Part shown: piece by piece, positions 1 to 64,000 of the stretch
Layout of the letters: every line of letters begins with the position of its first letter
Position numbering within the stretch: position 1 is the first letter of the stretch
Source: Knoellia sp. S7-12
GTDB lineage: Bacteria > Actinomycetota > Actinomycetes > Actinomycetales > Dermatophilaceae
Reading direction: 5' to 3'
DNA: 64,000 nt
NCBI RefSeq assembly: GCF_040518285.1
Contig: NZ_CP155449.1
Span: forward strand, 2,542,001-2,606,000
Notes under the pieces: model-generated
What the model saw: only the letters and a program-made list of their open reading frames with translations
Told to the model about the DNA's origin: nothing
Databases searched by the model: none
Made by a program: the position numbers and the translations under genes

Positions 1-1117
1 CAGGCTGACGCTGCGGGTCACCCTGCTGGACCGGACGCTGCGCGGGCTGACCCTGCTGACCCTGCTGACCAGCCGGGGATGACTGACCCTGGTGCTGGGC
101 GGCTGCCTGCTGGGTCTTGCTCGGCCCCTGGATGCTGCCGATGTGGCGCTCGTCGGGCCGCTTGGCCGGCGTGCCGCCATCGAAGCCAGCCGCGATGACG
201 GTGACCCGCACCTCGTCGCCGAGAGCGTCGTCGATGACCGCACCGAAGATGATGTTGGCCTCGGGGTGGGCTGCCTCCTGGACAAGGCGAGCGGCTTCGT
301 TGATCTCGAACAGGCCGAGGTCGCTGCCACCCTGGATCGAGAGCAGCACGCCGTGAGCGCCATCGATGCTCGCTTCGAGCAACGGGCTCGAGATGGCGAG
401 CTCGGCAGCCTGGACCGCGCGGTCCTCGCCGCGGGCCGAGCCGATGCCCATGAGGGCAGAACCGGCACCCTGCATGACCGACTTGACGTCGGCGAAGTCG
501 AGGTTGATCAGACCCGGGGTCGTGATGAGATCGGTGATGCCCTGGACGCCCGAGAGGAGCACCTGGTCAGCGCTGCGGAAAGCGTCGAGCATCGACACAG
601 CGCGATCGCTGATGGAGAGCAGGCGGTCATTGGGGATGACGATGAGGGTGTCGACCTCTTCGCGCAGTTGAGCGATGCCGGTCTCGGCCTGGTTGGCGCG
701 GCGGCGCCCCTCGAACGTGAACGGGCGGGTCACCACACCGATCGTCAGAGCGCCGAGGCCCCTGGCGATCCGGGCGACGACAGGCGCGCCACCGGTGCCG
801 GTGCCACCGCCTTCACCGGCAGTCACGAAGACCATGTCGGCCCCCTTGAGGACCTCTTCGATCTCTTCGGCGTGATCCTCGGCGGCCCTCTTGCCCACCT
901 CGGGGTCAGCGCCGGCACCGAGGCCACGGGTGAGCTCGCGACCGACGTCGAGCTTGACGTCGGCGTCGCTCATGAGGAGCGCCTGGGCGTCGGTGTTGAT
1001 CGCGATGAACTCGACGCCCTTGAGGCCGACCTCGATCATCCGGTTGATGGCGTTGACACCACCTCCACCGATGCCGACGACCTTGATGACGGCCAAGTAG
1101 TTCTGGGGTGTTGCCAC
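1..1117 (-). CDS. ftsZ: Cell division protein FtsZ (3' end cut by window edge)
   Basis: FtsZ is the tubulin-like GTPase that polymerises into the Z-ring at the inner membrane. The protein begins (GTG)[19 protein letters not shown], and the tubulin signature [10 protein letters not shown] lies near residue 105, followed by the T7-loop region around [11 protein letters not shown]. The GTG at 1115-1117 is preceded on the minus strand by AGGAGAGG, about 8 bases upstream. About 372 codons are present. The frame enters a Gln/Pro/Gly-rich linker ([11 protein letters not shown]) and is still open at base 1, so the conserved C-terminal peptide lies outside the window. It is the last dcw gene seen and is separated from ftsQ by 427 bp, which suggests its own promoter. 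The identification is certain; only the end is missing. Confidence 0.97.
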
Positions 1118-1544
1118 GGTGGGGGCCTCTCCTGAGATTGCTGAGTGCTCGAACTGGTGCTTCGACGTGCGATCTGATGCGCGAATCGTGTGTGACTCCG
1201 GAGAGAGAGTCTCGACCTCAAGTCAAGGGTCACAGTTTGATCACGAACCGTTGACCTGACGCTAGGCGTCGGCGCGGCGTCATGCAACGAGCGGATGGGC
1301 GTGTCGTGGCCCAGTCCGATGATTCTTCCTCACCCGTGCCACATCCGTCACATTGGCCCCGTCTCCCCCATGGCTGAGCCCACGTGCGCTTCACCATGCT
1401 TGTGCGCATCTGAGGGTTTGGCCAAGGCCCGCGCAGACGTCGTGGACGCCGGTGCACCGCGCAAAGAGTGCGTGAGCCTTCTGATGGAGCAGTCGGCCGG
1501 TCGATCAGTCGCTCGGCCCGATGGTCAGACGTTCGACCGGTTGG
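1118..1544 (-). promoter_or_regulatory. ftsQ-ftsZ intergenic region, probable ftsZ promoter region
   Basis: This 427-bp stretch lies between ftsQ and ftsZ in an otherwise gapless cluster. No convincing reading frame was seen on either strand. On the minus strand about 100 bases before ftsZ there is an imperfect inverted repeat, CTTGAC-N5-GTCGAG (1211-1227), whose first arm sits in a -35-like TTGACT. No good -10 hexamer was found at the right distance. Just after the ftsQ stop are degenerate direct repeats around CAGTCGCT. A separate ftsZ promoter here fits what is known of actinobacterial ftsZ regulation but is inferred. Confidence 0.4.
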
Positions 1545-2321
1545 TCAGTCGCTGGAGGGCGATGGGGACGGGCCACCACGCGTGACGGGGGTGTCGGGTG
1601 CGCTGACGTCGATGACCGCGGGCTTGGTGGGCAGGAGCGCCCGCAGGATCTCCAGCTTGCGGTCAGCTGCATCGGCGCCGCCCCAGACCACCTGCACTCC
1701 ACCCAGGGTGAACGAGACGAGGTTGGCAGTGCTCACCGCGATGGCACTCACCTGGTCGGCCAGGTCGACGGGCAGGGTGCGGATCATGGACAGAGCCGCC
1801 TCGAGCGCCTCCTTGGTCGTTCCCTTGGTGGAGGCCGCGGTGACGACCGGGACCCCGGCGGGCGCAGTGGTCACGGTGCCGTAAGACACGCCTGTCGCAT
1901 CCACAACCTCAAGTTGACCCTCAGGGTTCTTGAGCACGAGTGCGGGCTGGCGTGGGACTACTCGCACGCGCAAGGTGCTGGGCCAGCCGCGCTCGGCGGA
2001 GACCTCGGCAATGCTGCGACGAGAGCGAACCCGCTCCTCCACCTCTGCCAGATCGACCCTCGCGAGCGGCGTGCCCTTGGCGACGTCGACGAGCCCGGCA
2101 ACTGCTGTCCTGTCCGCCCCCGTCACTCCCGACACCTGGACTGAGCGCACGGCAAGCAGCGGGCTCCAGAAAGCGAGCCACACGAGGGCCAGGGCCACCC
2201 CCGCGGCGACGACGATCCACAGCACCCGTCGCCAAGGTCGGCGGCGCCGTTCGAGCGCCCTCTCACGAAAGCGAGAGTCGGCCGACGCGAGACCGCGCGA
2301 GGAGACACCCACGCCGCTCAC
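1545..2321 (-). CDS. ftsQ: Cell division protein FtsQ
   Basis: FtsQ/DivIB is a bitopic divisome protein that links FtsL/FtsB-type proteins and the septal synthase. The 258-residue protein has a basic cytoplasmic N-terminus (RERALERRRRPWRR), one membrane segment at about residues 33-52 (VLWIVVAAGVALALVWLAF), a POTRA domain (VRSVQVSGVTGADRTAV...) and a DivIB-type domain. The GTG start overlaps the murC stop by four bases (GTGA). The C-terminus is a short Pro/Ser tail. Position between murC and ftsZ is the standard actinobacterial order, so the assignment is firm although the family diverges strongly in sequence. Confidence 0.93.
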   Translation of the reverse strand: MSGVGVSSRGLASADSRFRERALERRRRPWRRVLWIVVAAGVALALVWLAFWSPLLAVRSVQVSGVTGADRTAVAGLVDVAKGTPLARVDLAEVEERVRSRRSIAEVSAERGWPSTLRVRVVPRQPALVLKNPEGQLEVVDATGVSYGTVTTAPAGVPVVTAASTKGTTKEALEAALSMIRTLPVDLADQVSAIAVSTANLVSFTLGGVQVVWGGADAADRKLEILRALLPTKPAVIDVSAPDTPVTRGGPSPSPSSD

Positions 2322-3769: not shown

Positions 3770-4881
3770 CAGCCGTTCCGACCTGCAGCCGCATCGATGA
3801 CAAGGTCGGCGAGCAGCTCGTCACCGTCGCGCTCCCCCACCGACGCCGCTGCGACCGCCATCTCGGCAAGGGCGGACGCATCGCGCAGGAGCGGGACGAG
3901 GGTGGCTTCGACCCAGGTCGTGGTGAGGTCGGCGTCCTCGACGACGAGGCCGCCACCGGCGGCCACAACGGCGCGCGCGTTGAGGCTCTGCTCGCCGTTG
4001 CCGATGGGCAAGGGCACGTATGCCGCCGGGAGACCGACCGCGGTCAGCTCACACACCGTGTTGGCACCGGAACGGGCGACGACGATGTCGGCTGCCGCAT
4101 AGGCCAGCTCCATGCGGTCGGCAAAGGGCACGACCACGTAGGGCGCGCCGGCTCCACCGGGCGGGACAGCGAACTCCTTGCCGAGGCCGGTGACGTGCAG
4201 CACCTGGACACCCGCCGAACCGAGCGATGTCGCCGCGCCCCGGAAGGCTTCGTTGATGCGCTGCGCACCCAGCGAGCCACCCGTGACGAGCACGGTCGGC
4301 CACTGCGGGTCGAGACCGAAGTGAGCCAGGGCCTCGTCGCGGCGCGCCTTGCGGTCAAGAAGGGCGATCTCGCGCCGCAGCGGCATACCCGTCACGGTTG
4401 CGCCGCGCAGCGGTGTGTCCGGGAAGGTGACCGCGACATGCTTAGCAAACCGGGAACCGAGTTTGTTGGCGAGGCCCGGACGAGCATTCTGCTCGTGGAC
4501 GACGACGGGTATGCCGCGTCGCCGGGCTGCGAGGTAGGCGGGCGTCGAGACGTAGCCGCCGAAACCGACCACCACCCGGGCGTCGGTCTCGCGGATCACG
4601 GTGTCAGCGGCCTCGACGGCGCGTCGGAGCGAGCCCGGCAGACGAAGCAGACCAACCGAGGGCCTGCGCGGCATCGGGACCTTGGGGACGACCTCGAGGT
4701 CGTAGCCGCGGGCCGGCACGAGTCGAGCCTCGAGGCCTTCGGCCGTGCCGAGGGCCGTGATCCGGACTTCGGGCTCGCGTCGGCGCAGACAGTCGGCCAG
4801 AGCGAGGAGAGGAGAGACGTGTCCGGCTGTGCCGCCACCTGCGAGGACGACCGAACGAAGGTTCACGGAGTCATCGGTCAT
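3769..4881 (-). CDS. murG: UDP-GlcNAc transferase MurG (lipid II synthesis)
   Basis: MurG transfers GlcNAc to lipid I to make lipid II on the inner face of the membrane (GT28 family). Seen: the N-terminal VVLAGGGTAGHVSPLLALAD glycine loop, the VVGFGGYVSTP segment, the TGGSLGAQRINE loop of the C-terminal domain, and the UDP-GlcNAc binding region SGANTVCELTAVGLPAAYVP. The start is the ATG at 4879-4881 (MTDDSVNLRS), which overlaps the ftsW stop as ATGA; the frame is open further upstream but that part is the antisense of ftsW. Two GTATGCCG-type octamers fall in this gene, one of which fixes an ATA Ile codon (4509-4516). Confidence 0.95.
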   Translation of the reverse strand: MTDDSVNLRSVVLAGGGTAGHVSPLLALADCLRRREPEVRITALGTAEGLEARLVPARGYDLEVVPKVPMPRRPSVGLLRLPGSLRRAVEAADTVIRETDARVVVGFGGYVSTPAYLAARRRGIPVVVHEQNARPGLANKLGSRFAKHVAVTFPDTPLRGATVTGMPLRREIALLDRKARRDEALAHFGLDPQWPTVLVTGGSLGAQRINEAFRGAATSLGSAGVQVLHVTGLGKEFAVPPGGAGAPYVVVPFADRMELAYAAADIVVARSGANTVCELTAVGLPAAYVPLPIGNGEQSLNARAVVAAGGGLVVEDADLTTTWVEATLVPLLRDASALAEMAVAAASVGERDGDELLADLVIDAAAGRNG

Positions 4882-6156: not shown

Positions 6157-7647
6157 TCACTCCCCCGAAGCAACGCGGCGGAGCACCGCCTCGGCGAAGG
6201 CATCTCCGCGTGCGCCGTAGTTGACGAACATGTCCATGGACGCGGCCGCCGGGGCGAGCAGCACGACATCGCCCGGCTGAGCGAGCGAGGAAGCCTGCGA
6301 GACGACGCGATCCATGGTCCCAGTGTCCGTCTCGGCAACGTCGACGACGGGGACATCGGGGGCGTGTCGGGCAAGCGCCTCGGCCAGGGTTGCGCGGTCG
6401 CGACCGATGAGCACGACGCCACGCAGCGAAGGGGCTGCGGAGCGCACGAGGTCGTCGACGTCGGCCCCCTTGAGGAGACCTCCGGCGATCCAGACGACGT
6501 GCTCGTATGCCGTGAGCGAGGCTGCCGCTGCGTGGGGGTTCGTGGCCTTCGAGTCGTCGATGTAGCGCACCTCGTCGAGCGTTGCGACGTAGGCGATCCG
6601 ATGGGCCTCGGGTCGGAACGCACGCAGTCCCTCGCGCACGGCACCGGCCTCGACTCCATGGGCCCGGGCAAGCGCTGCGGCGGCCAGCGCGTTGGCGACC
6701 AAGTGGGGTGCGACGTCAGGCGCATCACCGCGCAGGTCCTCGATGGACGCGAGCTCGGCAGCGGCGTGGCGGCGCTGCTCGACGAATGCCCGGTCGGCGA
6801 GGACCTCGCCCACGATGCCGAGCATCGACGGTGCAGGGGTGCCGAGGGTGAAACCGACGGCGCGGCAACCTTCCTGGACGTCGGCCTCCTCGACGAGGCG
6901 TTCGGTCTGGGGGTCGTCGACGTTGTAGATGCAGGCGACTTGCGTGTTGTTGTAGACCTTGCCCTTGGCCGCGAGGTAGTCGTCGTAGCTGCCGTGCCAA
7001 TCGACGTGGTCGGGAGCCACGTTGAGGCAGACCGAAGCCTGTGGACGGATCGAGTCCGACCAGTGGAGCTGGAAGCTCGACAGTTCCACCGCGATGGCGT
7101 CGAACGGTTCCGGGTCCATGATCGCTTCAAGGATCGGTGTGCCGACGTTGCCGGCGCTGATGGCCCGCTTGCCCGCGGCGCGCAGGATCGACGTGAGCAT
7201 CTGGACCGTTGTCGTCTTGCCGTTGGTGCCAGTCACGGTGAGCCACGGGGCGGCACCCTCGAGGGGACGCATCCGCCAGGCGAGCTCGACCTCTCCCCAG
7301 ATCGCGACGCCGGCCTGCGCCGCTGCCGCGAGCAGCGGTTGCGTCGGCGCCCATCCCGGAGAGGTGACGACGAGATCGACCGGGTCGGACGGCATACCGG
7401 CCACGTGTTCGGGACCGAAGCGCAGCTCGGCGTCAAGGATCTCGAGGATGCGCGCGCGCTCGGCCATCTCCGGAGTGGAGTCGGACGACGAACCGTCGAC
7501 GACGACGACGTGAGCGCCCCTCTCCAGCAGCGCATCTGCTGCCGCGAAGCCACTCACACCCAGTCCGGCGACGAGGACGCGCAGCCCTGCCCAGTCGGCC
7601 TCGCGGTGGGTGAGCCGCTCGAGCCGATCGGTGGATCCCGCGGTCAT
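6157..7647 (-). CDS. murD: UDP-MurNAc-L-alanine--D-glutamate ligase MurD
   Basis: MurD adds D-Glu to UDP-MurNAc-L-Ala. The protein has about 496 residues: an N-terminal Rossmann region ([20 protein letters not shown]), the ATP loop [13 protein letters not shown], then [28 protein letters not shown] and the C-terminal [11 protein letters not shown] motif, all typical of MurD. The ATG at 7645-7647 ([12 protein letters not shown]) overlaps the mraY stop as ATGA. The frame is open upstream to 8961 but that part is antisense mraY and murF, so the internal ATG was taken. Confidence 0.95.
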
Positions 7648-8726: not shown

Positions 8727-10156
8727 TGGGAATCCTCCTGGGTGGTGCGGTCTGGTGTCCGGTCAGGCCTGGTCTGGTCAACCGTGCTGAGTTTGTCTCC
8801 GAGCCACCGTAGACCCGCATCCCGGCTCGACTTGAACAACACGACGTCGGGTGGGGCGACTTCGGCACGGAGCAGCGCTTCGGCGGCATCGGCATCGGCG
8901 ACCCAGCGGATCCGGGTGCCGCCGACGGGTGTGATGTCGGCCATGGGGCGCGCGGTCTCACCGACGACGACGAGCTCGCCGACCCCTCGCCGTTGCGCCT
9001 CCGCGCCGACCTCGGCGTGGTCGCTGTCGGACTCGTCGCCGAGCTCGAGCATCGAGCCCAGGACGGCCCAGGTGCGTCGCCCCTCCCCCATCGACTCGAG
9101 CGCCGCGAGGGCGGCGCGCATCGAGTCGGGATTGGCGTTGTAGGCGTCGTTGACGATGGTCACGCCGTCGGGCCGATCGGTGACGTCCATGCGCCAGCGG
9201 CTGACGATGCCGGCTTCGGCGATCGATGTGGTCGCCGCCTCGAGGGGTATGCCGCACTCGAGAGCCACCGCGAGAACGGCCAGTGCGTTGCCGACGTGGT
9301 GTCGACCGACGAGCCGGAGCGCGATCGTTGTCTCGCCGTCAGGGGTGATGGCACGGAAGGTCGCCCGACCGTCGCTGCCGACGGTGATGTCCTCGGCGCG
9401 GATGCTTGCGTCGGCGGCCTCGCCGACGAGGACGACGCGTGCATCGGTGCGATCGCTCATGGCGCGCACGACCGGGTCATCGGCGTTGAGGATGGCCACA
9501 CCATCACTCGGTAGTGCCTCGACCAGTTCGGCCTTGGCCCGGGCAATGGCCTCACGAGAGCCGAACTCGCCGACGTGGGCCGTGCCGACGTTGAGCACGA
9601 CGCCGATCTGCGGGGGGGCGATCTTGGTGAGGTAGTCGATGTGGCCGACGCCTCGCGCCCCCATCTCGACGACGAGGAACCTGGTGGCTTCGGTGACGCG
9701 GGTGACGGTGAGCGGCACCCCGACCTCGGAGTTGTAGGAGCCGACCGGCGCGATCGTCGGTGCCGCAGCTCCGAGAACGCTGCCGAGGAGGTCCTTGGTG
9801 CTCGTCTTGCCCGAGGAGCCGGTGATGCCGATGACGGTGAGGTCGGTGGCGCGGTCGAGGACGGCTCGCGAGATGGCAACGAAGGCGGCCTGCACATCGT
9901 CGACGACGACACACGGAAGTTCCTCGACCGTGCGGCTCGTCAACGCCGCGACAGCTCCGTTGTCGCGGGCCGCGGCAACGAACCGGTGCCCGTCCATCGA
10001 CTCACCGATGCGAGCGACATAGAGGCTGCCGGGCTCGGCTTCACGTGAGTCGGTGACGACGGAGCCGGTGACGACGGGCAGCTCGCCCGAGGCCGGGGCG
10101 CCATGCACGGTGCCACCGGTCGCAGCAGCGATCTGCGCCAAGGACAGGGCGATCAC
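8723..10156 (-). CDS. murF: UDP-MurNAc-tripeptide--D-Ala-D-Ala ligase MurF
   Basis: MurF adds the D-Ala-D-Ala dipeptide to UDP-MurNAc-tripeptide. The 477-residue protein carries the N-terminal substrate domain ([13 protein letters not shown]), the ATP loop [14 protein letters not shown], then [25 protein letters not shown] and the C-terminal [15 protein letters not shown] motif. The C-terminus runs into a polar tail ([18 protein letters not shown]). The GTG start overlaps the murE stop as GTGA. An octamer copy at 9247-9254 makes the Ile of ECGIPLEA an ATA codon, rare in this DNA. Confidence 0.95.
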
Positions 10157-11757
10157 GTCGTGACCTCGCCGTCCGAAGTGGCGCCATCCTGAGTGGTTCC
10201 GTCCTGAGTGGTTCCGTCCAGCGCGGCCTGCAGTTCGAGACGGTCGTCGAACGGTTCGACGACTCCGGCGATCTCCTGCCCGGTCTCGTGGCCCTTGCCG
10301 ACCACTGCGATGACGGAGCCCGGACCGCCCTCACGGGCCAGCCGAACCGCTTCGCGGATGGCGTCGCGCCGACCGCCGACCTCGACGAGCACCGCCGTGG
10401 TGTCGATGGACTGCGCACCCTCGACGACGGCGGCACGGATCTGCGCCGGGTCCTCGCTGCGCGGGTTGTCATCCGTGACGACGACGACGTCGGCCAGACC
10501 AGCAGCGGCCCGACCCATGCCGTGGCGCTTGCCTCGGTCCCGGTCTCCACCGGCTCCGAGGACGACGACGAGGCGGCCCGACGTCGTGGGCCGCAGGGCT
10601 GCCAGAGCGGCCTCGACCGCGTCGGGTGTGTGGGCGTAGTCGACGACGGCAAGGAGCCCGCTGTCCACGTCACTCACCTGCGTGGGCGTGACCTTCTCCA
10701 TGCGGCCGGGAACGTGAGGGTCGGTGAGGATCGCGCGTCCGACGGCGTCGGTGTCCTCGCCGAGGAGCAGCAGGGCGACGGCGGCCATCGCGGTGTTGGC
10801 CACGTTGAAGTCGCCCGGGAGGGCAGAGCGCAGGTCGAGCTCGATTCCGCTGCCGCGCAACGTGAATCGCGCCGGCTCGGTCGGGTCGACCGTGACCACC
10901 CAGTCCGCCGCCTGGTCCGCCTGCGTCGTCAACGTCGTCACCGGCACCCCGGACTGCTCCGCGAGACGACGGCCCCAGATGTCGTCGACACAGATGAGTC
11001 CACGGGTCGACCGCTCGGGCGTGAAGAGCTGAGCCTTGGCGGAGAAGTAGTCCTCCATGTCGGCGTGGAAGTCGAGGTGGTCCTGCGACAGGTTCGTGAA
11101 GAGGGCGAGGTCAAAGACGACGCCGTCGACACGGTGCTGGCTGAGCGCGTGACTCGAGACCTCCATGACGCAGGTGTCGGTGTCGCGCTCGTCCATGACG
11201 GCGAGGATCGCGTGGAGGTCGGTCGACTCGGGGGTCGTGCGCACGCTCTTGATGCGCTCGTCCCCGATGCGCGTCTCGACCGTGCCGATGAGCCCGGTCC
11301 GCTGTCCGAGGACGTCGAGAGCGCTGGCAACGAGGTATGCCGTGGTCGTCTTGCCGTTGGTGCCGGTGATCCCGACCATCGTGAGGTTCAGGTCGGTGGT
11401 GCCATAGATCTGGGCTGCGAGGGCGCCGAGGACCGAGCGCGGTGCCTCGACCGTGATGACCGGCAGGTCGACGCCGGCGTCACGCAGTCTCAGGACACCG
11501 TCAGCATCGGTGAGCACGGCAACGGCGCCGGCCTGCGCCACCTGCGCCGCGAAGTCGGCGCCGTGGGCCCGGGAACCGGGCAACGCGGCATACAGGTCAC
11601 CGGGTCTGACGGCGCGCGAGTCGAGAGTCACCCCGGTGACGACGACGTCACCGGCTGCATCGTCTGGTGATGCACCGCCGTCAAGAGATGCGGTGACGAG
11701 CAGCGCGAGCTCACGAACACTCGAACTGGTCAGGGAAGCGGGTCGGGGTGCAGACAC
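10153..11757 (-). CDS. murE: UDP-MurNAc-tripeptide synthetase MurE (DAP-adding type)
   Basis: MurE adds the third residue of the stem peptide. The 534-residue protein has the DSRAVRPGDLYAAL N-terminal motif, the ATP loop [15 protein letters not shown], the EVSSHALSQHRVDG segment and the C-terminal DYAHTPDAVEAAL. The specificity loop reads DDNPRSEDP; DNPR is the known signature of diaminopimelate-adding enzymes, so a DAP-type peptidoglycan is inferred. The C-terminus ends in TQDGTTQDGTTQDGA-type repeats encoded by 15-bp direct repeats near 10188-10220. The start is GTG, 11 bases after the ftsI stop. Confidence 0.95.
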   Translation of the reverse strand: MSAPRPASLTSSSVRELALLVTASLDGGASPDDAAGDVVVTGVTLDSRAVRPGDLYAALPGSRAHGADFAAQVAQAGAVAVLTDADGVLRLRDAGVDLPVITVEAPRSVLGALAAQIYGTTDLNLTMVGITGTNGKTTTAYLVASALDVLGQRTGLIGTVETRIGDERIKSVRTTPESTDLHAILAVMDERDTDTCVMEVSSHALSQHRVDGVVFDLALFTNLSQDHLDFHADMEDYFSAKAQLFTPERSTRGLICVDDIWGRRLAEQSGVPVTTLTTQADQAADWVVTVDPTEPARFTLRGSGIELDLRSALPGDFNVANTAMAAVALLLLGEDTDAVGRAILTDPHVPGRMEKVTPTQVSDVDSGLLAVVDYAHTPDAVEAALAALRPTTSGRLVVVLGAGGDRDRGKRHGMGRAAAGLADVVVVTDDNPRSEDPAQIRAAVVEGAQSIDTTAVLVEVGGRRDAIREAVRLAREGGPGSVIAVVGKGHETGQEIAGVVEPFDDRLELQAALDGTTQDGTTQDGATSDGEVTT

Positions 11758-14734: not shown

Positions 14735-15711
14735 CGCCGGCCTCCCTTCGTGGGACGAGTGCGTTCTGCAACCCGCAGTCGAGCTGACGCGGATCGGGGG
14801 TTCGTGGACTGCTCGGACGCCGAGGGCTCTTCGGCGCCTCGGGTGAGCAGACGGAGGTATGCCGCGTGCTCGGGGAGCTCGACGGGGATACCGGGAGGGG
14901 TGCTCGAGGTGGCACCGGCAACCAACGCGCGCTTGGTGATCCGGTCCTCGAGCGAGTGGTAGGAGAGGACGGCGATCCGACCGCCGACTGCGAGCACGTC
15001 GATGGAGCCCAGCACGGCTCGTTGCCAGGCACCGAGCTCGTCGTTGACCTCGATGCGGAGCGCCTGGAAGGTCCGTTTGGCCGGGTGACCACCCGTGCGC
15101 TGCGACGCCGCGGGCACGGCGCCACGCAGCAGCTCGACGAGACGCGCCGATCTCGTGAAGGGCTCGCTCTCGCGCTCGCGCACCACGGCCGAGACGATGC
15201 GCTTGGCAAAGCGCTCCTCGCCGTAGTCCCGCAGGATCCTCAGGAGGTCGGCGGGCGCATAGGTGTTGAGGACCTCGGCGGCGGTGATGCCACTCCCCTG
15301 GTCCATGCGCATGTCGAGCGGCGCGTCCTGGGCGTAGGCGAATCCGCGGTCGGCCTCGTCGAGCTGGAGCGAGGAGACGCCAAGGTCGAACAGGATGGCC
15401 TGGGCGTCGCGCAGCCCGAGCTCGGCCACGACCTCGGCGATCTCGTCATAGACGGCGTGCACGCCACGGAACCGTTCGCCAAAGCGGGCCAACCGCTCGC
15501 TCGCGAGCGCCAGAGCTTCCTCGTCGCGGTCGATGCCGATGACGGTCGCCTCGGGGCACGCCTCGAGGAAGGCCTCGGCGTGACCGCCCATCCCGAGCGT
15601 GCCGTCAACAAGAATTGACCCCGGCTCGGAGAGGGCCGGGGCCAGGAGCTCGACGATGCGGTCGCGGAGCACGGGAACGTGCCGCTCGGCGGCTGCTCCT
15701 CGTGATTCCAT
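14731..15711 (-). CDS. rsmH: 16S rRNA m4C1402 methyltransferase RsmH (MraW)
   Basis: RsmH methylates N4 of C1402 in 16S rRNA using S-adenosylmethionine. The 326-residue protein starts [17 protein letters not shown] and has the SAM loop [20 protein letters not shown], the GIDRDEEAL acidic motif, [20 protein letters not shown], and near the end [13 protein letters not shown], all diagnostic. The ATG at 15709-15711 ([11 protein letters not shown]) has AAGGAG seven bases upstream. The frame is open further upstream but without conserved sequence. First gene of the tightly overlapped part of the dcw operon. Confidence 0.96.
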
Positions 15712-44920: not shown

Positions 44921-44972
44921 GACAAGGTCCCGCGCAACGCGGCATACAGCACGCGTTCTGCGGGACCTTGTC
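44921..44972. terminator. Bidirectional hairpin with GTATGCCG copy in the loop region
   Basis: Arms GACAAGGTCCCGC (44921-44933) and GCGGGACCTTGTC (44960-44972) pair over 13 bases, continue after a 2-base mismatch with AACGCG/CGCGTT, and close over GCATACAGCA. CGGCATAC at 44940-44947 spans the inner stem and loop. It separates convergent stops at 44901 and 44997. Confidence 0.75.
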
Positions 44973-50475: not shown

Positions 50476-50491
50476 GACGGCGTATGCCGTC
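50476..50491. terminator. Small hairpin containing GTATGCCG between convergent genes
   Basis: GACGGC-GTAT-GCCGTC: 6-bp arms with the octamer spanning loop and right arm, located between convergent stops at 50449 and 50508. It is weak as a terminator but repeats the placement of the octamer in gene-end hairpins. Confidence 0.45.
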
Positions 50492-50507: not shown

Positions 50508-51218
50508 TCAGCTCGCCACGAGCTCGGCGCTGGCGAGCGCCTCGTTGGGCACGGCATAGAGCTCGTCGCCGACCCTGACCTGGCTGCGCGTGGCGAAGGC
50601 GGCCTCGACCTCGCCGACGGCACCGTGCAAGGCCCCGTCCACGACGATGCGCACCATGGCTCCGACCACAAAGGGCGAATGGCCCACTGTGACAGCGGAA
50701 CTCACACGCTCCCCGCGACCGAGCGTCAGTGACTCGAGCTCCGCGCGATAGGCCTGACCCATCTCCACGCGTCGCCCGTGGAAGGTCCAGGCGATGACGA
50801 ACTCGGAGTCGAACCCGTGACGGCAGCGCACGCAGCTCTGGACCCGCGTGGGTCGACGGTGACGCGTCGAGACGTGACCGTTGGGGCACTCACCACGCCA
50901 CGGACCGTCGACGGTCGGCGCGTTCGTGGGCACCGTGCGCTCACCGGAGCAGCCGATGGCCATGGCCTTGGCCCGCCACACGCCGTCGTGACCGTGACCG
51001 GGCCCGACGAGGGCGTGGGCGATCTCGTGCAGGATCGTGTCGCGCACCTCGGCCTCGTCGTGAAGGCGAGTCAAGGGAGCGCTGAGAGAGATCGTGCGGC
51101 CAGCAAAGCGGCATACGCCTGCTCTGGTCTTGGCCCGATCGGTCGTGATCGTCCAGTGCTCCAGCCCGTGCTCACGCAACAGGCGGCGCCCGAGTGCGAG
51201 TGCCGGTGAGATCTCCAT
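50508..51218 (-). CDS. SprT-like zinc metallopeptidase
   Basis: The protein of about 236 residues has the metallopeptidase motif TILHEIAHALVGPGHGHDGV (HEIAH at 64-68, third ligand in GHGHD), followed by a Cys pattern of a zinc ribbon (CPNGHVSTRHRR and QSCVRCRHGF) as in SprT-like proteins. The C-terminal 70 residues form a separate small beta domain. ATG at 51216-51218 (MEISPALALG) was chosen over a longer frame; a GTG two codons earlier is possible. SprT relatives act on DNA-protein crosslinks in eukaryotes; the bacterial role is unclear. Confidence 0.82.
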   Translation of the reverse strand: MEISPALALGRRLLREHGLEHWTITTDRAKTRAGVCRFAGRTISLSAPLTRLHDEAEVRDTILHEIAHALVGPGHGHDGVWRAKAMAIGCSGERTVPTNAPTVDGPWRGECPNGHVSTRHRRPTRVQSCVRCRHGFDSEFVIAWTFHGRRVEMGQAYRAELESLTLGRGERVSSAVTVGHSPFVVGAMVRIVVDGALHGAVGEVEAAFATRSQVRVGDELYAVPNEALASAELVAS

Positions 51219-51326: not shown

Positions 51327-52247
51327 ATGGCAAGACCCGACGACATCAGCACCAACTCCACCCGCTGGGATGCCCGCGCCCGGACTCAACTCGCTCACGC
51401 CCTGCGGTCACGCGTGGCGGGTGACGACGCCGCTGCCAAGGCGGCCGTCATCTGGGGCGCCGAGGGTGAGCGCTGGTTTACGCCCGAGGACCCGATCTGG
51501 CGAGTGCACGCGGACGCGGCGATGTTCCCCGGGGGCATCCGGGCGTTGCTCCTCCAGTCGTTGCATCCCCTCGCCATGGCTGGTGTTGCGGGGCACTCGG
51601 GCTTCAAGGGTGACCCGTGGGGGCGGCTCCAGCGCACCAGCGAGTTCCTCGCGACCACGACCTTCGGCACGATCGAGCACGCTGAGAAGATCATCGAGCG
51701 CGTGCGCTCGATCCATGAGCGGGTGCGCGGCAAGGCAGCCGACGGACGTCCCTACGCGGCGAGCGACCCCCACCTGCTCCGGTGGGTCCACGTCACCGAG
51801 GTGGACAGCTTCCTCGTCGCCTTCCAGCGGTATGCCGCGAAGCCGCTGACCGACGCGGAGGCCGACCGCTATGTCGAGCAGACCGCAGTCGTGGCGCAAC
51901 GCCTCGGAGTCGTGGACCCACCGCTGACAACGGCCGCCCTGGCCACGGCGATTGAGGCGTATCGGCCGGAGCTGCAGTCCACGCCCGCCGCACGCGAAGC
52001 CGCCCGATTCCTGCTCGTGCACCCGCCGCTCCCCCTCGCCGCGAAGCCCGGGTATGCCGCACTCGCCGCTGGTGCCGTGGCGCTTCTCCCCCGCTGGGCA
52101 CGCCGCCCGCTGCGGTTGCCGTGGTTGCCGTTCACCGAGAGGGTGCTGGCTCGTCCCCTGGGTGATGCGGCCACAGCCACAGTTCGATGGGCGATGACGG
52201 ATCCGCAGGACGTGCGGATCGTCGCGTCGGAGTCTCGGACGGCCTGA
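51327..52247 (+). CDS. MpaB/DUF2236 family oxygenase-like protein
   Basis: The protein of about 306 residues shows the DUF2236 pattern: WRVHADAAMFPGGIRALLLQ, LHPLAMAGVAGHSGFKGDPW, RTSEFLATTTFGTIEHAEKI, and the His-containing DPHLLRWVHVTEVDSFLVAF. This family includes latex-clearing protein and MpaB, which bind heme; here the conserved His residues fit. ATG at 51327 has AGGAG six bases upstream. The substrate is not predictable. Confidence 0.87.
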   Translation: MARPDDISTNSTRWDARARTQLAHALRSRVAGDDAAAKAAVIWGAEGERWFTPEDPIWRVHADAAMFPGGIRALLLQSLHPLAMAGVAGHSGFKGDPWGRLQRTSEFLATTTFGTIEHAEKIIERVRSIHERVRGKAADGRPYAASDPHLLRWVHVTEVDSFLVAFQRYAAKPLTDAEADRYVEQTAVVAQRLGVVDPPLTTAALATAIEAYRPELQSTPAAREAARFLLVHPPLPLAAKPGYAALAAGAVALLPRWARRPLRLPWLPFTERVLARPLGDAATATVRWAMTDPQDVRIVASESRTA

Positions 52248-54182: not shown

Positions 54183-54992
54183 ATGCCAGACGCTGACTCA
54201 CCCGGGACCGCACGGTCCCGCAACCGACCGCTGATCGTCACAGCGTTGACCGCTGTTGGGTCCGTCAGCCTGCTCGGTGCGGCCCTCGTCTTCGGCTGGC
54301 TGGGTCCCGACGTCGGCCGCGGCGGGAGCTTCTGCGAGGCCGCCCGCGACGCGTTCATCAAGCAACCCGCGAACACCTTGAGCAACCTGGGCTTCGTCGT
54401 CGCCGGGCTCGCCATCGCCTGGCACGTCTCCCGCCGCGGAACCGGCGCGTTGAGCGCGAGTCTTGGGACGGCATACGCCGTCTTGGTCGTGCTGCTCGGA
54501 CCGGGAAGCGCGGCGATGCACGCGTCGCAGAGTGCGCTGGGCGGGCGCCTCGACGTCTACAGCATGTATCTGCTCGCGAGCTTTGTGTTCTCGTATGCCG
54601 CCGCTCGGCTCCTTGCGCTCCTGTTCGCCGGTTTCGCCGGGCTCTTCGTGGTGGTGCTCGGGGTGTGCACCATCGCCGAGTTCACGTCAGCGGATGTGCC
54701 GGTGGTCATGACGACGGGGAACGCGGTGTTTGCGGTCCTGCTGCTCGCTGGGCTCGTCATGGAGGTGGTCGTGCGATCGCGTGGCGCGAGTCGTCTCGAC
54801 CTGCGTTGGGGACTGGCGTCGGCCGCTGTCCTCGTTGCGGCGTTCGTCATCTGGAACACCGGCAAGGACGGCGGCCCGCTCTGCGAACCGTATTCGCTGC
54901 TGCAGCCGCACGCCGTGTGGCACGTGCTCGATGCGGTGGCCGCGTGGCTGCTCTTCCGCTTCTATGCGAGCAGTCGGCCGGGCTGGGGATAA
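54183..54992 (+). CDS. Ceramidase-like (CREST superfamily) membrane protein
   Basis: The 269-residue protein has about seven membrane helices and the conserved layout of alkaline-ceramidase-like hydrolases: FCEAARDAFIKQPANTLSNL early (Glu), GPGSAAMHASQSALGGRLD (His, Asp), and near the end LLQPHAVWHVLDAVAAWLLF (His-x3-His). These residues bind zinc in the CREST superfamily. The substrate in bacteria is not known. ATG at 54183 (MPDADSPGTARS) chosen over a TTG three codons earlier. Confidence 0.78.
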   Translation: MPDADSPGTARSRNRPLIVTALTAVGSVSLLGAALVFGWLGPDVGRGGSFCEAARDAFIKQPANTLSNLGFVVAGLAIAWHVSRRGTGALSASLGTAYAVLVVLLGPGSAAMHASQSALGGRLDVYSMYLLASFVFSYAAARLLALLFAGFAGLFVVVLGVCTIAEFTSADVPVVMTTGNAVFAVLLLAGLVMEVVVRSRGASRLDLRWGLASAAVLVAAFVIWNTGKDGGPLCEPYSLLQPHAVWHVLDAVAAWLLFRFYASSRPGWG

Positions 54993-55031: not shown

Positions 55032-56294
55032 ATGACCTCGAAGCATCTGTATGCCGTTGCCGCACTTGCCCTTTCCGTTTCCCTTCCGCTGGGCGCCTGC
55101 TCGCAAGCCGACTCCACCGAAGGTGAGGCGAAGCCGAAGGCCAGCAGAACGGCATACCCGCAGCCTGCCTACAAGGTGAACCACGAGCAGGCCAAAGCCA
55201 TCGCCGCCGTGGGTCAGCGGCTCGCGGACGGGAGGACGTCGGAGCCGATCACGGACGAGTTCTACGCGATCGACTTCTGTCATGGGGCCGGTGAAATGAC
55301 GATGGCTGAAATTGAACCGTGGTCCACCGGGAGCAGGCTCCCATCACCAAGCGCGAATGACCCGAGTGGTCCGACTGAGAGCGACTCGGCGCAGCTCGGC
55401 TTCACCATCGCCCAAGTCGTTGTGCTCGGCTCCTCCCCGGAAACCATGAAGTGGGCCGAGCAGAAGTTTGAGAAGGGTTCTGCGTGCCCGGACTACGACG
55501 GCACCCCCCTCACCACGCAAAAAGTCACAGTCCCGGGAGCATCAACCTCATTGGTGCGTACGAGATCAAACCCGCATGCCGTGGGATGGGAGGCGCACTC
55601 GGCGATGGGTGCGGCGCGAGTCGAGAATGCCCTCTTGTTCTGCTTTGCTGACGCACGAACGCGCCCGATGGCTTTGAGCAGCGTCACGTCATGCCTGACG
55701 GAGATGGCTTACGCCGTACCCCTGGCGGCCGAGCAGCCAGTTGCGATCACGGACGCCAACAGGGACGTGGCTACGAAGATGTTGCTCGCGCAGGTGGCCG
55801 GCAAAGACCTGCGAGCCACCGTCAGCCGACGCAGCGCAACGCTGCCCTGTGAGACCTCGCGGGCAAAATTTCTCCCTGACGGAACGATCGGGGCGTTGAT
55901 CCAGACCGATGAACCAGCCACCGACGAGGATCCTGAGGCGTTGGAAACGGGCGAGCTCATGGCCCTGCTTGCCGCAGAACGACAGACCGACCCCGCTGCC
56001 GCGCGCGCGAAGGTGGCACAGGCCCGCGCCAAGTACTCGACGTGCTCCGGGAGGTATTCGCGAGGGGCTGGAGATGCTCAGCAGCATGGCGCGGTCACGG
56101 GGGTGTCCGATGCATCATTCGGCGATGGTGGCTTCACCATCACACGCACGTTGGAATTCGCGGGGAGAACTGCTCCTGGGATCGGTCAGGAGTCGATCTT
56201 CAGCGTCGGGCCCTACGTGATCCAGCTCAGCTCGACGGCCCCCGAGAGGGCTGAGGCCATAGCCACGCGACTCAAGGTGGTGACGGGTTCGTGA
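55032..56294 (+). CDS. Putative lipoprotein of unknown function
   Basis: The 420-residue protein starts MTSKHLYAVAALALSVSLPL with lipobox LGAC at about residue 23. The mature part has several Cys and no recognised domain. Codon use is less G+C-biased than in the core genes. GTATGCCG lies in the signal peptide codons (55049-55056) and again at 55150. Neighbours are other lipoproteins, which suggests an accessory surface locus. Confidence 0.75.
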   Translation: MTSKHLYAVAALALSVSLPLGACSQADSTEGEAKPKASRTAYPQPAYKVNHEQAKAIAAVGQRLADGRTSEPITDEFYAIDFCHGAGEMTMAEIEPWSTGSRLPSPSANDPSGPTESDSAQLGFTIAQVVVLGSSPETMKWAEQKFEKGSACPDYDGTPLTTQKVTVPGASTSLVRTRSNPHAVGWEAHSAMGAARVENALLFCFADARTRPMALSSVTSCLTEMAYAVPLAAEQPVAITDANRDVATKMLLAQVAGKDLRATVSRRSATLPCETSRAKFLPDGTIGALIQTDEPATDEDPEALETGELMALLAAERQTDPAAARAKVAQARAKYSTCSGRYSRGAGDAQQHGAVTGVSDASFGDGGFTITRTLEFAGRTAPGIGQESIFSVGPYVIQLSSTAPERAEAIATRLKVVTGS

Positions 56295-56418: not shown

Positions 56419-57036
56419 ATGAACAAGCGCAGGACGATGACGTATGCCGTTGCCGCAGCGACCGCTGCCACGCTCGCCTTAGCGGGCTGCAACGGCGGCG
56501 ACAAAGACCCAACGCCCACCCCGACGGCGTCGAGTTCGTCGACGAGTACGGCCAGCCCGAGCGGTAGCAAGTCACCATCGCCAACTGCTTCTGCGAGCCC
56601 GAGCAAATCGACAGCAGGAGACACCCCTCCCGCAGCGCGCGCCAAAACGAACGACGGCGCTCTGGCTTTCGTACGCTTCTACTTCGATCAGGTGAATCTG
56701 GCCTACACCAAGCCGGATGTGAATTTGCTCCCACCGCTGGTTACTAACGCTTGCCAAAGTTGCTCTGGGCTCCAGAAGGGCGTCGTGGATATCGCGGCCG
56801 CGGGCCAGCGAATGAAGTCCAATCTCGTAGCTCCAATCCCATCGGCGACGATCGCTACCGAGGCGCCAGCTGGCGAGACATGGGTCAGGTTCACACTGTC
56901 GCAAATGACCGTGCCGGTCATTGACAAGTCCGGCAAGGAGCTTGAAGGCCAGAAAGCCAGCTCAGTTGCCAAGATCGTGGCGGTGGTTTGGGAGGGGGAT
57001 CAATGGAAAATACACGGCATCGCAAATCAGTCCTAG
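56419..57036 (+). CDS. DUF6318-like lipoprotein, copy 1
   Basis: The 205-residue lipoprotein has a signal peptide with lipobox LAGC (MTYAVAAATAATLALAGC), a Ser/Thr/Pro linker of about 40 residues and a domain NDGALAFVRFYFDQVNLAYT, then ACQSCSGLQKG and VAVVWEGDQWKIHGIANQS. This resembles the DUF6318 family of actinobacteria (function unknown). A GGAGGGG site precedes the ATG. The 3' end overlaps the secreted-protein gene by 34 bases. A paralogue follows at 57934. Confidence 0.82.
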   Translation: MNKRRTMTYAVAAATAATLALAGCNGGDKDPTPTPTASSSSTSTASPSGSKSPSPTASASPSKSTAGDTPPAARAKTNDGALAFVRFYFDQVNLAYTKPDVNLLPPLVTNACQSCSGLQKGVVDIAAAGQRMKSNLVAPIPSATIATEAPAGETWVRFTLSQMTVPVIDKSGKELEGQKASSVAKIVAVVWEGDQWKIHGIANQS

Positions 57037-60479: not shown

Positions 60480-61795
60480 CGTGTCTCTCCTTCGCTGGGT
60501 GTCCAAGTCGAGCCGATGTCGGCCGCCCACACCCACGGGAGTCGAGCAGCGACTCGGAAAACCCGTCGGTCATCGACGAAGCACCGGAAGTCGCCGCCGA
60601 GGGTCAGAACACGATGGCGTATGCCGTCCAGCCCGCTTCCCGGGCGGAACTCCACGGCCGTCTCGGCCGGTAGATGGTTGGCCACCTCGATCTCGACGCC
60701 CGACTCCGGCGTGGCGCGAACCAACACTCGCACCCCGATGCCGGGTGCGTGACGGCGCGCGTTCGTGAGCAGCTCCTGAGTGATGCGGAACGCGCTGCGA
60801 CTCGTCGTCCCGTCGAGGCGGCCGATCCCTTCGAGCTGCGAGGTGGACACGAGATTCACTCCTGTTGCGACGGTCTCGTCAATCAGGGCCGGCACGTCTC
60901 TCAGCGTCGGCACCGCGGCTGCGACGTCCGGCGAGTCGGGCTGGCGCAGCATCGCGAGCAACGAACGTAGATCCGCCATCGACTGCTGAGCATTCGCTCG
61001 CACTAACGCCGCAGACTCCGCGACCTTCGGGTTGTCTCCTGACGTGACCTCGAGTGCGCCGGCGTGCAGGGACAGCAGCGAAAGCCGGTGTCCCAGAGCG
61101 TCATGCACCTCCTGGGCAATCCGCTCGCGGTCCGACTGCCGCGCCACCTCGTCACTCAGCGAGTCCACGACAACGCGCTGTTCCTCGACGACGAGCTCAG
61201 CCCGAGAGAGCGAGGTGCGTGCGCGGATGAACAGGCCCAGCCCGACGGTGGCGCCCACAAGCCCTACCGTGATGAGAAGCACGACCCACCAGGGCATCGG
61301 GGACAACTGCTCAGCCTGGTTGTTGGTCCGGAAGGACTGCCAGAACGATGCGGGTGACGACGTCCCGCGAGAGTCCCGCCACGTCGTCACGAACGTTGCC
61401 ACCGTGAGCAGCCCACCCAGCGCCACGGTCGTCCGGTCGAGACGTCGGACCATGAGCGAACCAAAAGCAATGAGGGCGGACACCGGGTCGATGGGCAGGA
61501 CCAGAGTCAGCACACCTGTGGCAAACGCGACCAGTTCGGGGAAGTGTCGGCGACAGGCAAGGCCCACGGCTGCGGTCATCGCGATGAGGAACAAGAGCAC
61601 CGCGGCGCCGGACATGGCGCCGGTGGCGTCATACCCGCCGCGCTGGGTCTCCCAAGCCCCCACCGCAAGTGAACTGCTCATGGTGCACAACGGGAGATAG
61701 ACGACCCACGTTCGCACTTGCGGCCGCCTCAGGATCCCAAGCAGCCGCTCGACCCCGGCGGGGCGCGAGGGTGCTGGTGCTGGGATCGCGGTCAT
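60476..61795 (-). CDS. Sensor histidine kinase (HisKA_3 type)
   Basis: The 439-residue kinase has five or six N-terminal membrane helices, a coiled-coil linker (ARTSLSRAELVVEEQRVVVD), the HisKA_3 box ERIAQEVHDALGHRLSLL with the phospho-accepting His, and a degenerate HATPase region: QELLTNARRHAPG (N-box), then GSGLDGIRHRV (G-box). The ATG at 61793-61795 (MTAIPAPAPS) was chosen. An octamer copy at 60619-60626 makes the Ile of GLDGIRHRV an ATA codon. Paired with the response regulator by overlap. Confidence 0.93.
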   Translation of the reverse strand: MTAIPAPAPSRPAGVERLLGILRRPQVRTWVVYLPLCTMSSSLAVGAWETQRGGYDATGAMSGAAVLLFLIAMTAAVGLACRRHFPELVAFATGVLTLVLPIDPVSALIAFGSLMVRRLDRTTVALGGLLTVATFVTTWRDSRGTSSPASFWQSFRTNNQAEQLSPMPWWVVLLITVGLVGATVGLGLFIRARTSLSRAELVVEEQRVVVDSLSDEVARQSDRERIAQEVHDALGHRLSLLSLHAGALEVTSGDNPKVAESAALVRANAQQSMADLRSLLAMLRQPDSPDVAAAVPTLRDVPALIDETVATGVNLVSTSQLEGIGRLDGTTSRSAFRITQELLTNARRHAPGIGVRVLVRATPESGVEIEVANHLPAETAVEFRPGSGLDGIRHRVLTLGGDFRCFVDDRRVFRVAARLPWVWAADIGSTWTPSEGETR

Positions 61796-61982
61796 GTCGT
61801 CAAAGTAAAGCCTCACACCGACAGGCACGTCCCCCGAATGGCTGGACACGGCACATCGGATCTCCCCCAAACGGCCAACGAGGGTGAGCCGCCCTGTGGC
61901 AGAACGGAACCCGGCATACGCGATGAACTCGGCTCATCACGCCAACCCGGCCGAACAGCGGCCGCCAGCCAAGGAGAACGAC

Positions 61983-62564: not shown

Positions 62565-62608
62565 GACGGGCTTCGCCCGATCAATCTCTGGGTATGCCGT
62601 GTGGCTGG

Positions 62609-62828: not shown

Positions 62829-63773
62829 GTGGAGTACGAGGAGTGGCCCGCTCCGCCCGGGCTGGAGCGGCTCGTCTCGCGGATGTGGTTCCTCGAAGTG
62901 CCACGAGTCCGCCGGTTCGAGAAGATCCTGCCCCTGCCGTTCGTCCACCTCATCATCAATCTGTCCGATCCGTATGCCGTCGTCGACCGATCGGGGACTG
63001 CGACCCAGGTCGGCGGCGCCTTCATCTCCGGTATTCAGACGGAGTACCTCGTCATCGAGCAACCGCCGCTCATCCGCCACCTCGGCGTGGAGCTCCTGCC
63101 GGCCGGGCTGGGTGCGGTCACCGACGTCGGCGGGCCGCAGATTGCCGGGCGGGTGCAGGACGCGCGGCTGCTCGTGCCCGGTCTCAGCGAGCTCATCGAC
63201 GACCTCGTGGTTGGGTTCAGTGAGCTCGACAAATGCCGCACATCGGACCTGGCGCTGGACCGGATGACGACCCTCCTGCTGTCGCGGCATGCGGCGCGGT
63301 CGAGCGGATCACCCCTTCCCGACCCGCTGGTCGCTTCGGCTCTCGCGTCGCTGGAGGAGAACCCGAGTCGTCCGATCAACGCCTTGGCCGTCGGGGTGTC
63401 GCAGCGAACCCTGCTGGCTCGATTCCGCGCGGCCACCGGCATGTCACCCAAGACCTACGCGCAGGTGCTCAGGTTCCACCGGCTCGTGACAGCTCTTGCC
63501 ACCTCCTCGAGTGTCGGAGGCAGGATGGGCCATGCCGCGAGCGTCCCTGGGACCGGCATGGAGTTTGGGTGGGCCGACGTGGCGACCGGGTCCGGCTACT
63601 ACGACCAGCCGCACGTCATCCGCGCGTTCCGTCGGTTCTGTGGCTGGACACCGACCGAGTACATCCGTCGGGTTGATGAGTTCGGCCCTGACGCAGCGCT
63701 GTTCGTCCCACTCGACGAGGTCCCGCGCGACAGTGACGCGACGACGAAGGCGACGACCCGGGGCGTGCCCTGA
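62829..63773 (+). CDS. AraC-family transcriptional regulator
   Basis: The 314-residue protein has an N-terminal ligand-type domain (FVHLIINLSDPYAVVDRSGT, FISGIQTEYLVIEQPPLIRH) and a C-terminal AraC DNA-binding domain: LAVGVSQRTLLARFRAATGM, SPKTYAQVLRFHRLVTAL and, for the second helix-turn-helix, WADVATGSGYYDQPHVIRAF then RRFCGWTPTEY. Between the two there are about a dozen extra residues (GRMGHAASVPGTGMEF), longer than usual. Target unknown; the partial DUF5655 gene is convergent and three bases away. Confidence 0.92.
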   Translation: MEYEEWPAPPGLERLVSRMWFLEVPRVRRFEKILPLPFVHLIINLSDPYAVVDRSGTATQVGGAFISGIQTEYLVIEQPPLIRHLGVELLPAGLGAVTDVGGPQIAGRVQDARLLVPGLSELIDDLVVGFSELDKCRTSDLALDRMTTLLLSRHAARSSGSPLPDPLVASALASLEENPSRPINALAVGVSQRTLLARFRAATGMSPKTYAQVLRFHRLVTALATSSSVGGRMGHAASVPGTGMEFGWADVATGSGYYDQPHVIRAFRRFCGWTPTEYIRRVDEFGPDAALFVPLDEVPRDSDATTKATTRGVP

Positions 63774-63775
63774 CC

Positions 63776-64000
63776 TCAGGCTCCCTCGTAGGCCCGGCGC
63801 ATCCAGTCGAGCAGCTCGGCGTCCACCTCGGACTGGTCGGCGATGTCGACACGGTGGGTGCACATGCCACCGGCCGCCACGAGCCGGTCGGTGGGCTCTG
63901 CATCACGCAGGTTGAGGCCGAGTCGGACGCGCTTGGCGCTGGGCGCCTCCACGAGTGCGAACTGCTTCGAGCGCCGCAGCGACACACTTGTCTTCTTCGG
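63776..64000 (-). CDS. DUF5655-like protein (5' part outside window)
   Basis: The frame is open from the window end to 63776 and encodes the C-terminal 74 residues: PKKTSVSLRRSKQFALVEAP, SAKRVRLGLNLRDAEPTDRL, then GGMCTHRVDIADQSEVDAEL and LDWMRRAYEGA. This matches the DUF5655 pattern (SLRRKKQFAL..., GGMCSHRV...). The N-terminal part and start lie outside the window. Function unknown; such domains often sit at the end of DUF4287 proteins. Confidence 0.78.
   Translation of the reverse strand, partial: PKKTSVSLRRSKQFALVEAPSAKRVRLGLNLRDAEPTDRLVAAGGMCTHRVDIADQSEVDAELLDWMRRAYEGA

Follow-up and report, generated by a model that had tools for sequence, protein, structure and literature searches.

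The stretch of DNA analysed here, called the window, comprises 64,000 nucleotides of Knoellia sp. S7-12 (bases 2,542,001-2,606,000 of a single-contig genome of 4,163,720 bp), and the element in question is an octamer, GTATGCCG, that recurs throughout it and is examined here as a candidate DNA uptake sequence (DUS). The MraY protein encoded in the window is 94% identical to that of Knoellia aerolata, the best match among 80 loci in a comparison that may have excluded records of the genome itself, so that this protein points to Knoellia or a very close genus. An exact count returned the same 42 copies that a preliminary description of the window had reported, 27 as GTATGCCG on the given strand and 15 as CGGCATAC, and the same 25 of 42 that carry an extra letter T (GTATGCCGT). 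Base composition alone predicts 2.4 copies, within the two to three proposed earlier, and the G+C content, put at 69%, was measured as 67.8%. Simple gene calls place 14 of the 42 copies outside genes, including all nine sites listed when the intergenic number was given as about nine. Three of these 14 (55049, 55150, and 56442) share one 2.5-kb gap and two more (44625 and 44940) share one 1.3-kb gap, in both of which genes were possibly missed. The pairing of copies in gene-end hairpins proved real at 21419/21445, where the flanking convergent genes end at 21311 and 21480. Each copy below is an exact string match, and statements on location relative to genes rest on the gene calls as well:

4018..4025, +, GTATGCCG
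4381..4388, -, GTATGCCG
4509..4516, +, GTATGCCG
6505..6512, +, GTATGCCG
7390..7397, -, GTATGCCG
9247..9254, +, GTATGCCG
11335..11342, +, GTATGCCG
11586..11593, -, GTATGCCG
14857..14864, +, GTATGCCG
16536..16543, -, GTATGCCG, intergenic
18108..18115, +, GTATGCCG
19459..19466, -, GTATGCCG
21419..21426, +, GTATGCCG, left arm of a hairpin between convergent genes
21445..21452, -, GTATGCCG, right arm of the 21419 hairpin, 12-bp stem
24470..24477, +, GTATGCCG
26537..26544, -, GTATGCCG, intergenic
28060..28067, +, GTATGCCG
31339..31346, +, GTATGCCG
33162..33169, -, GTATGCCG
33649..33656, +, GTATGCCG
35933..35940, +, GTATGCCG
38008..38015, +, GTATGCCG, intergenic
39402..39409, -, GTATGCCG
39857..39864, +, GTATGCCG
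41996..42003, +, GTATGCCG
44625..44632, +, GTATGCCG, in a 1.3-kb gap between gene calls
44940..44947, -, GTATGCCG, in the same 1.3-kb gap as 44625
45298..45305, -, GTATGCCG
46491..46498, +, GTATGCCG
50482..50489, +, GTATGCCG, intergenic
51109..51116, -, GTATGCCG, intergenic by gene calls
51830..51837, +, GTATGCCG
52052..52059, +, GTATGCCG
54469..54476, -, GTATGCCG
54593..54600, +, GTATGCCG
55049..55056, +, GTATGCCG, in a 2.5-kb gap between gene calls
55150..55157, -, GTATGCCG, in the same 2.5-kb gap as 55049
56442..56449, +, GTATGCCG, in the same 2.5-kb gap as 55049 and 55150
60619..60626, +, GTATGCCG
61912..61919, -, GTATGCCG, intergenic
62592..62599, +, GTATGCCG, intergenic
62972..62979, +, GTATGCCG

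Over the whole genome (4.16 Mb), GTATGCCG occurs 2,805 times (1406 + 1399), or 0.67/kb, which is 35 times the count of the reversed word used as a control (33 + 46 = 79), and the nine genomes available for the genus each contain 1,971-3,277 copies. The word is thus enriched both elsewhere in the genome and in relatives, two places where the preliminary description had allowed that it might prove ordinary. Further statistics were computed on 680 kb of the genome, made up of one unbroken 320-kb block that includes the window and of 18 pieces, 20 kb each, from across the chromosome. The 450 copies in this sample compare with Markov expectations of 19.3 (order 3), 72.9 (order 4), 261.8 (order 5), and 419.7 (order 6); in a first sample of 464 kb, GTATGCCG ranked first among over-represented octamers at orders 3 and 4 and lay outside the top eight at orders 5 and 6. 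Orders 5 and 6, which had been proposed earlier as a check, are unfit as a test because their 6- and 7-letter pieces are inflated by GTATGCCG itself. With the copies masked, order 3 predicts 6.3 occurrences, a 71-fold enrichment. On the same masked basis, 22 of the 24 one-mismatch variants of GTATGCCG occur at 0.3-3 times expectation, which indicates that all eight bases matter; the other two (expectations 0.5 and 2.1) reach 8.0 and 4.4 times. The copies are spaced barely more evenly than random (coefficient of variation 0.88).

Gene calls on the 680-kb sample, made by a simple method (592 genes, 85% of bases), place 318 copies within genes and 124 in the spacers, with 8 straddling a border; densities are 1.21/kb in spacers and 0.55/kb in genes. 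Shuffling synonymous codons within each gene yields 34.1 ± 5.4 coding copies vs. the 318 seen, and each of the six frames is enriched (seen/shuffled: 7/0.2, 25/7.4, 149/17.7, 5/0.9, 103/6.5, and 29/1.5). The word imposes rare codons on genes, as 29 of the 75 rare ATA codons in the sample and 149 of the 953 TAT codons lie inside it.

Across 20 stretches taken around the chromosome there is no consistent strand skew, and the most lopsided of them has 9 copies on one strand and 3 on the other. Forward and reverse copies number 230 and 220 in the 680-kb sample, 116 and 99 in its 320-kb piece, and 27 and 15 in the window. All 17 pairs of copies at most 40 bp apart in the sample are inverted and none is direct, where about 2.4 would be expected in each of four orientations; the left copy is forward in 10 and reversed in 7. 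Twelve of the 17 lie in spacers, stems reach up to 19 bp, and spacer density runs from 2.28/kb between convergent genes to 1.15/kb between tandem and 0.91/kb between divergent genes. Such close pairs are predicted from their letters to form terminator-like hairpins. The flanks carry a weak bias, the same in coding and intergenic copies, with A near -7 to -10, T/C at +9, and T at +19 in this genome; in other genera +9 is again C/T and +19 mostly C. The base after GTATGCCGT is G in 114 and C in 65 of 200 cases.

The word is also held in place within the genus. In blocks around comEC compared with eight congeners at 78-85% identity, the other species retain 70 of 88 own copies, vs. 2,210 of 7,927 permuted octamers (28%). 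At the comEC-region loci of congeners the tyrosine codon TAT is kept in 23 of 27 cases inside GTATGCCG and in 34 of 115 outside it, where it mostly becomes TAC. Both this control and the synonymous shuffles agree with the earlier view that codon use is not the sole cause of the enrichment. Towards three other genera with the word (G012, G015, and G029; genomes are designated by G numbers), 13 of 18 copies are kept vs. 15-21% in controls. Five loci that lack GTATGCCG or use another dialect keep 0 of 43 (controls 801/5,300), the same own sites recurring among the 43.

The distribution of the word centres on the family. With cut-offs set by the authors (positive, at least 0.14/kb and at least 2.4 times control; negative, below 0.05/kb), a survey of 186 family genomes gave 107 positive, 10 intermediate, and 69 negative, and 30 of 53 genera contain one or more positive genomes. 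Of 394 genomes drawn class-wide, five of eight family members and none of the 386 others are enriched; the densest genome seen outside the family, G086, reaches about 0.05/kb (386 copies in 7.5 Mb vs. 176 reversed). Among named loci, the word is present in Knoellia, Nostocoides, Terrabacter, Arsenicicoccus, Serinicoccus, and Flexivirga (12 copies, 4 reversed), and there are no copies in the loci of Janibacter, Phycicoccus, Luteipulveratus, Mobilicoccus, and Allobranchiibius. Intrasporangium has 1 copy and Ornithinimicrobium 2 per 21 kb, and in loci of Arthrobacter, a genus of the Micrococcaceae, GTATGCCG is not enriched.

Some genomes use related spellings, one letter off GTATGCCG at position 2, 6, or 7. 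GGATGCCG occurs 3,816 times in G024 and 3,949 times in G033 (reversed controls 392 and 289), and 28 times in 21 kb of the metagenome-assembled genome Go_SlAct. Two genomes carry GTATGACG beside GTATGCCG, namely G034 (1,954, control 87, beside 1,734) and G011 (1,557, control 151, beside 2,288); G027 has 1,204 copies of GTATGCGG vs. 107 in the control, and a 20-kb sample of G020 is a mix of GAATGCCG (12) and GTATGCCG (8). In a ComEC tree, which as a single gene is a guide only, G024/G033 (99/99) and G011/G034 (100/100) are sisters, and by this tree the dialects appear to follow the family phylogeny. Exchange of one dialect for another at identical sites, sought in ten comparisons that drew on seven genome pairs, and also between ten named loci and the window, was found at best for 3 of 10 own copies (read as GGATGCCG in Go_SlAct), counts too small for a claim.

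Two further candidates were set aside. TCTTGCCG/GTCTTGCC had looked like a dialect of Phycicoccus, Intrasporangium, and Mobilicoccus in samples of 21-42 kb, and was dropped because it stays at or below about 2.5 times the reversed control in 58 genomes and turns up, as any common octamer would, in loci of no relation. A GGATGCCG dialect in G009 (1,336 vs. 310) is not claimed, as this word stands at 2-4 times its reversed control in many genomes and at 6.6 times in G019. Other observations on such words are listed for completeness. G055, of another family (f19), has 1,548 copies of GGATGCCG vs. 184 reversed; GTACGCCG in G441 (32 in 40 kb vs. 6.6 expected) is weak and a possible further dialect; GTACGGCG gives a weak signal in Allobranchiibius and G498; and in G053, positions 28082-31265 repeat GTATGCGG about 50 times, every ~61 bp, resembling a clustered regularly interspaced short palindromic repeat (CRISPR) array.

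Mobile DNA is poor in the word. The 35 kb at 705-740 kb of the Knoellia genome contain no copy where about 24 are expected, and encode two integrase matches, a TraG-like coupling protein, a cell-wall hydrolase, and a TrwC relaxase that ends just past the region, which by this gene content is most likely an integrative conjugative element. Two copies occur in the 35 kb at 1905-1940 kb, with three integrases nearby, and none in the 10 kb at 373.5-383.5 kb; the sampling of integrase regions covered 8 of 11 matches. Phage TJE1, whose annotated host is Tetrasphaera jenkinsii, carries the word and its reversed control equally often (2 copies in 49 kb), and its host species, now named Nostocoides jenkinsii, has 20 in 21 kb. 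A stretch at 800001-815000 of the own genome (G000) is also word-poor (1 copy in 15 kb), with lower GC in part.

The genes comEA and comEC, for which the preliminary description had suggested looking, are both present in the genome. ComEA has SLBB and helix-hairpin-helix (HHH_3) domains, and its gene adjoins comEC; the two lie some 41 kb past the window. A Tad/Flp locus at 1,400,894-1,405,411 encodes a T2SSE ATPase, two T2SSF proteins, a TadE, and a TadE/G-like protein, together with a second TadE match below the Pfam cut-off and a 70-residue frame without a Pfam match where the Flp pilin would sit. The same set of machinery genes (Flp/Tad, ComEA, and ComEC) serves competence in Micrococcus luteus, of the same phylum, in which comEC and tad genes are needed for transformation; the terms "uptake sequence" and "sequence specific" are absent from the main text of that report (PMC4322843).

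The iteration of the word, its spread over both strands, its indifference to reading frame, its terminator-like hairpins, its dialects, and its scarcity in foreign DNA point to an uptake word. We consider it probable that GTATGCCG is the core of the DNA uptake sequence of the Dermatophilaceae/Intrasporangiaceae, which would make it a third uptake-signal system with biased uptake, and this system is most likely tied to Flp-pilus competence. We also lean towards the fuller proposal that it evolved independently as a third system, the first in monoderms. In such a system GTATGCCG and its dialects would let cells recognise self DNA, and the receptor would sit on the Flp/Tad pilus or next to it and have no kinship with the minor pilins ComP and ComN. 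The resemblance to uptake sequences raised in the preliminary description has thus gained from most sequence tests, and from the dialects and the depletion of mobile DNA besides; these support the class of signal and do not prove its function, and the receptor, the biased uptake, and the transformability of these bacteria are what we infer.

Under the mechanism that we hypothesize, DNA would enter cells through the Flp/Tad pilus, ComEA, and ComEC, and a putative surface receptor would prefer fragments with the word, so that kin DNA would enter and recombine more than foreign DNA. Alleles with the perfect word would be taken up preferentially, and recombination would keep the word and spread it over the shared chromosome wherever genes can bear it without loss of function, most readily in spacers and in hairpins at gene ends; elements of recent arrival would not yet have gained it. 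Drift in receptor specificity would bring drift in spelling, and with it dialects.

To our knowledge, DNA uptake sequences are known only from Neisseriaceae and Pasteurellaceae, and none in Gram-positives. A literature search, with most subscription papers and preprints outside its reach, found no paper with GTATGCCG, none joining an uptake sequence with Intrasporangiaceae, and none joining an uptake signal, Actinomycetota, and natural transformation; the form CGGCATAC led to one paper, on Ralstonia typing, and Knoellia together with natural transformation to one on smoothies. The DUS of Neisseriaceae offers the closest comparison. Frye et al. report ~1,900 copies of a 10-mer in N. meningitidis and N. 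gonorrhoeae, dialects within the family, and one genome with two dialects at once (PMC3630211). The likeness extends to thousands of short non-palindromic words, inverted pairs as terminators, and dialects one to a few letters apart that follow the tree (PMC3630211, PMC12616744). The differences are that the word occurs here in monoderm, high-GC actinobacteria, that an 8-letter core with weak flanks stands against 10-12 letters, and that a pilin of the ComP class (type IVa) was not detected in the genus. The string ATGCCGT is common to GTATGCCG and the DUS 12-mer, and GCCGT is shared between GTATGCCG and the DUS 10-mer GCCGTCTGAA as given in another source (PMC6370729). We take this likeness in letters as chance, given that GTATGCCGT is followed by G more often than by C.

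The letters of the uptake signal sequence (USS) of Pasteurellaceae are unrelated to GTATGCCG, and the USS shows mild base preferences in its flanks, roughly one turn of the helix from the word. The weak flanks described above, including the A near -7 to -10 and the T at +19 of the own genome (mostly C in other genera), are USS-like in this respect. The iterated word, the hairpin pairs, and the variants within a family are further likenesses, and the differences lie in the phylum, the cell envelope, and the predicted USS receptor ComN/PpdA, a type-IV minor pilin (PMC12616744).

Several observations weigh against the uptake reading. First, the machinery is not specific to word-bearing genomes. 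ComEC and TadE are each found in 57 of 58 relatives regardless of the word, and since they are present with or without it, they neither predict the word nor identify the receptor. Neither the own genome nor its eight congeners gave a match to PF07963, the signal of type-IVa pilins, although this short model can miss pilins, and a Neisseria ComP-like receptor is unlikely because PF07963 is present in none of these nine genomes. Matches occur in 12 of the 58, including the word-positive G013 and G032, so that a search for the receptor through PF07963 (mostly absent) and TadE (nearly everywhere) returned no candidate; the PF07963 class defines the known receptors, not the uptake function. The literature search described above likewise found no uptake or transformation experiment on these genera.

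Second, conservation is not family-wide. The preliminary description had called for a comparison at homologous positions, and what stood within the genus and towards three genera failed elsewhere: K. aerolata keeps 4 of 10 copies (control 26%), and six named word-bearing loci (Nostocoides, Terrabacter, Arsenicicoccus, two Serinicoccus, and Flexivirga) keep 4 of 47, vs. 645 of 5,090 (13%) in controls. The places thus appear to be stable inside the genus and in comparison with some genera, and to have turned over elsewhere though the word persists, a pattern that fits a motif that is regained. TAC codons show no gain from lying inside GTATGCCG (16 of 21 kept, vs. 260 of 298 outside), and between dialect pairs, in counts made without controls, 3 of 8 copies of GGATGCCG are kept in G033/G024, and 3 of 9 of GTATGACG and 3 of 11 of GTATGCCG in G011/G034.

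Third, the 69 family genomes without GTATGCCG have to be accounted for. A replacement word was sought in sampled negative genomes and most had none; none was conspicuous in sampled DNA of G440, G445, G477, G520, and G561. Three genera each hold one clearly negative genome (G445, G498, and G520) among positives, and these genomes could help to find the genes responsible. Finally, the surroundings of integrases at 467 and 3396 kb show no clear depletion, and any slow process that marks resident DNA would be expected to leave islands depleted as well.

Among other explanations, a word of the HIP1 kind, kept by DNA modification or repair (a methyltransferase with biased repair or conversion) and unrelated to uptake, would equally be maintained at homologous places, and that maintenance alone does not separate it from an uptake word. 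HIP1 of cyanobacteria is an iterated 8-bp word of similar density (about once per kilobase); unlike GTATGCCG, which is not its own reverse complement, it is palindromic. Single-base repair, moreover, cannot account for all eight positions being held, the dialects vary at positions 2, 6, and 7, and we know of no one-letter dialect set within a family for HIP1. Inverted gene-end hairpins are a trait of USS and DUS (PMC12616744). We regard a HIP1-like origin as unlikely; the methylation site offered in the preliminary description may nevertheless apply.

We see a similarly small chance that the word marks self DNA for a reader inside the cell, either as a Chi-like site for a nuclease of the RecBCD, AddAB, or AdnAB type or for a different enzyme of defence or recombination that leaves word-bearing DNA intact or recombines it. 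This would suit a non-palindromic octamer that is absent from the conjugative island, nearly absent from the phage of a related host, and conserved on core DNA within the genus. Chi-type signals, which stimulate recombination by RecBCD-type enzymes, are strand-biased relative to replication; the near-equal strand counts of the 680-kb sample and the lack of consistent skew in the 20 stretches speak against such a role. We also know of no Chi with 35- to 70-fold enrichment, or of one whose dialects are this similar within a single family.

That the word orients FtsK, as do the FtsK-orienting polar sequences (KOPS), or otherwise serves chromosome architecture, is very improbable. A genome-wide non-palindromic octamer split 27 to 15 in the window would be in keeping with it, but the defining trait of KOPS is a strong strand bias along replichores, which the 20 stretches do not show, and the close pairs of GTATGCCG are inverted hairpins. 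Absent skew conflicts in this way with both the FtsK-orienting and the Chi alternatives that the preliminary description had offered. That the word merely results from codon or dipeptide usage, or that it belongs to a family of dispersed repeats, is hardly credible either: the commonest frame does read tyrosine-alanine and TCTTGCCG, enriched-looking in small samples, did turn out ordinary, but all six frames exceed the shuffles, spacers are denser than genes, the flanks share a weak bias only, and TAT is kept inside and not outside the word. Chromosome-orienting, Chi, codon-usage, and single-base-repair readings thus fit poorly.

If GTATGCCG is an uptake word, such words would arise repeatedly and in distant phyla, a receptor other than ComP/ComN would be implied, and about thirty genera (30/53) would be pointed to as naturally transformable, with a tag usable for engineering DNA. 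The system would also provide an independent replicate for asking why uptake words evolve. The presence of dialects in one family could allow the receptor to be sought by co-variation, and a test of whether dialects limit gene flow.

Some observations from the same data concern other subjects. Octamers TCGAACTG, CCGTGACC, and GTCGAACT occur 31-39 times in 40 kb of G030 and are perhaps parts of one longer repeat. Genomes without GTATGCCG have over-represented palindromes, GGACGTCC in G018, GTGCGCAC in Janibacter, and CGGTACCG and ATCGCGAT in G022. Within the window, positions 1545-16149 on the - strand hold division and cell-wall genes in conserved order, named from inspection of the open reading frames as encoding an FtsQ-like protein, murC, murG, ftsW, murD, mraY, murF, murE, a penicillin-binding protein, an FtsL-like protein, and mraW.

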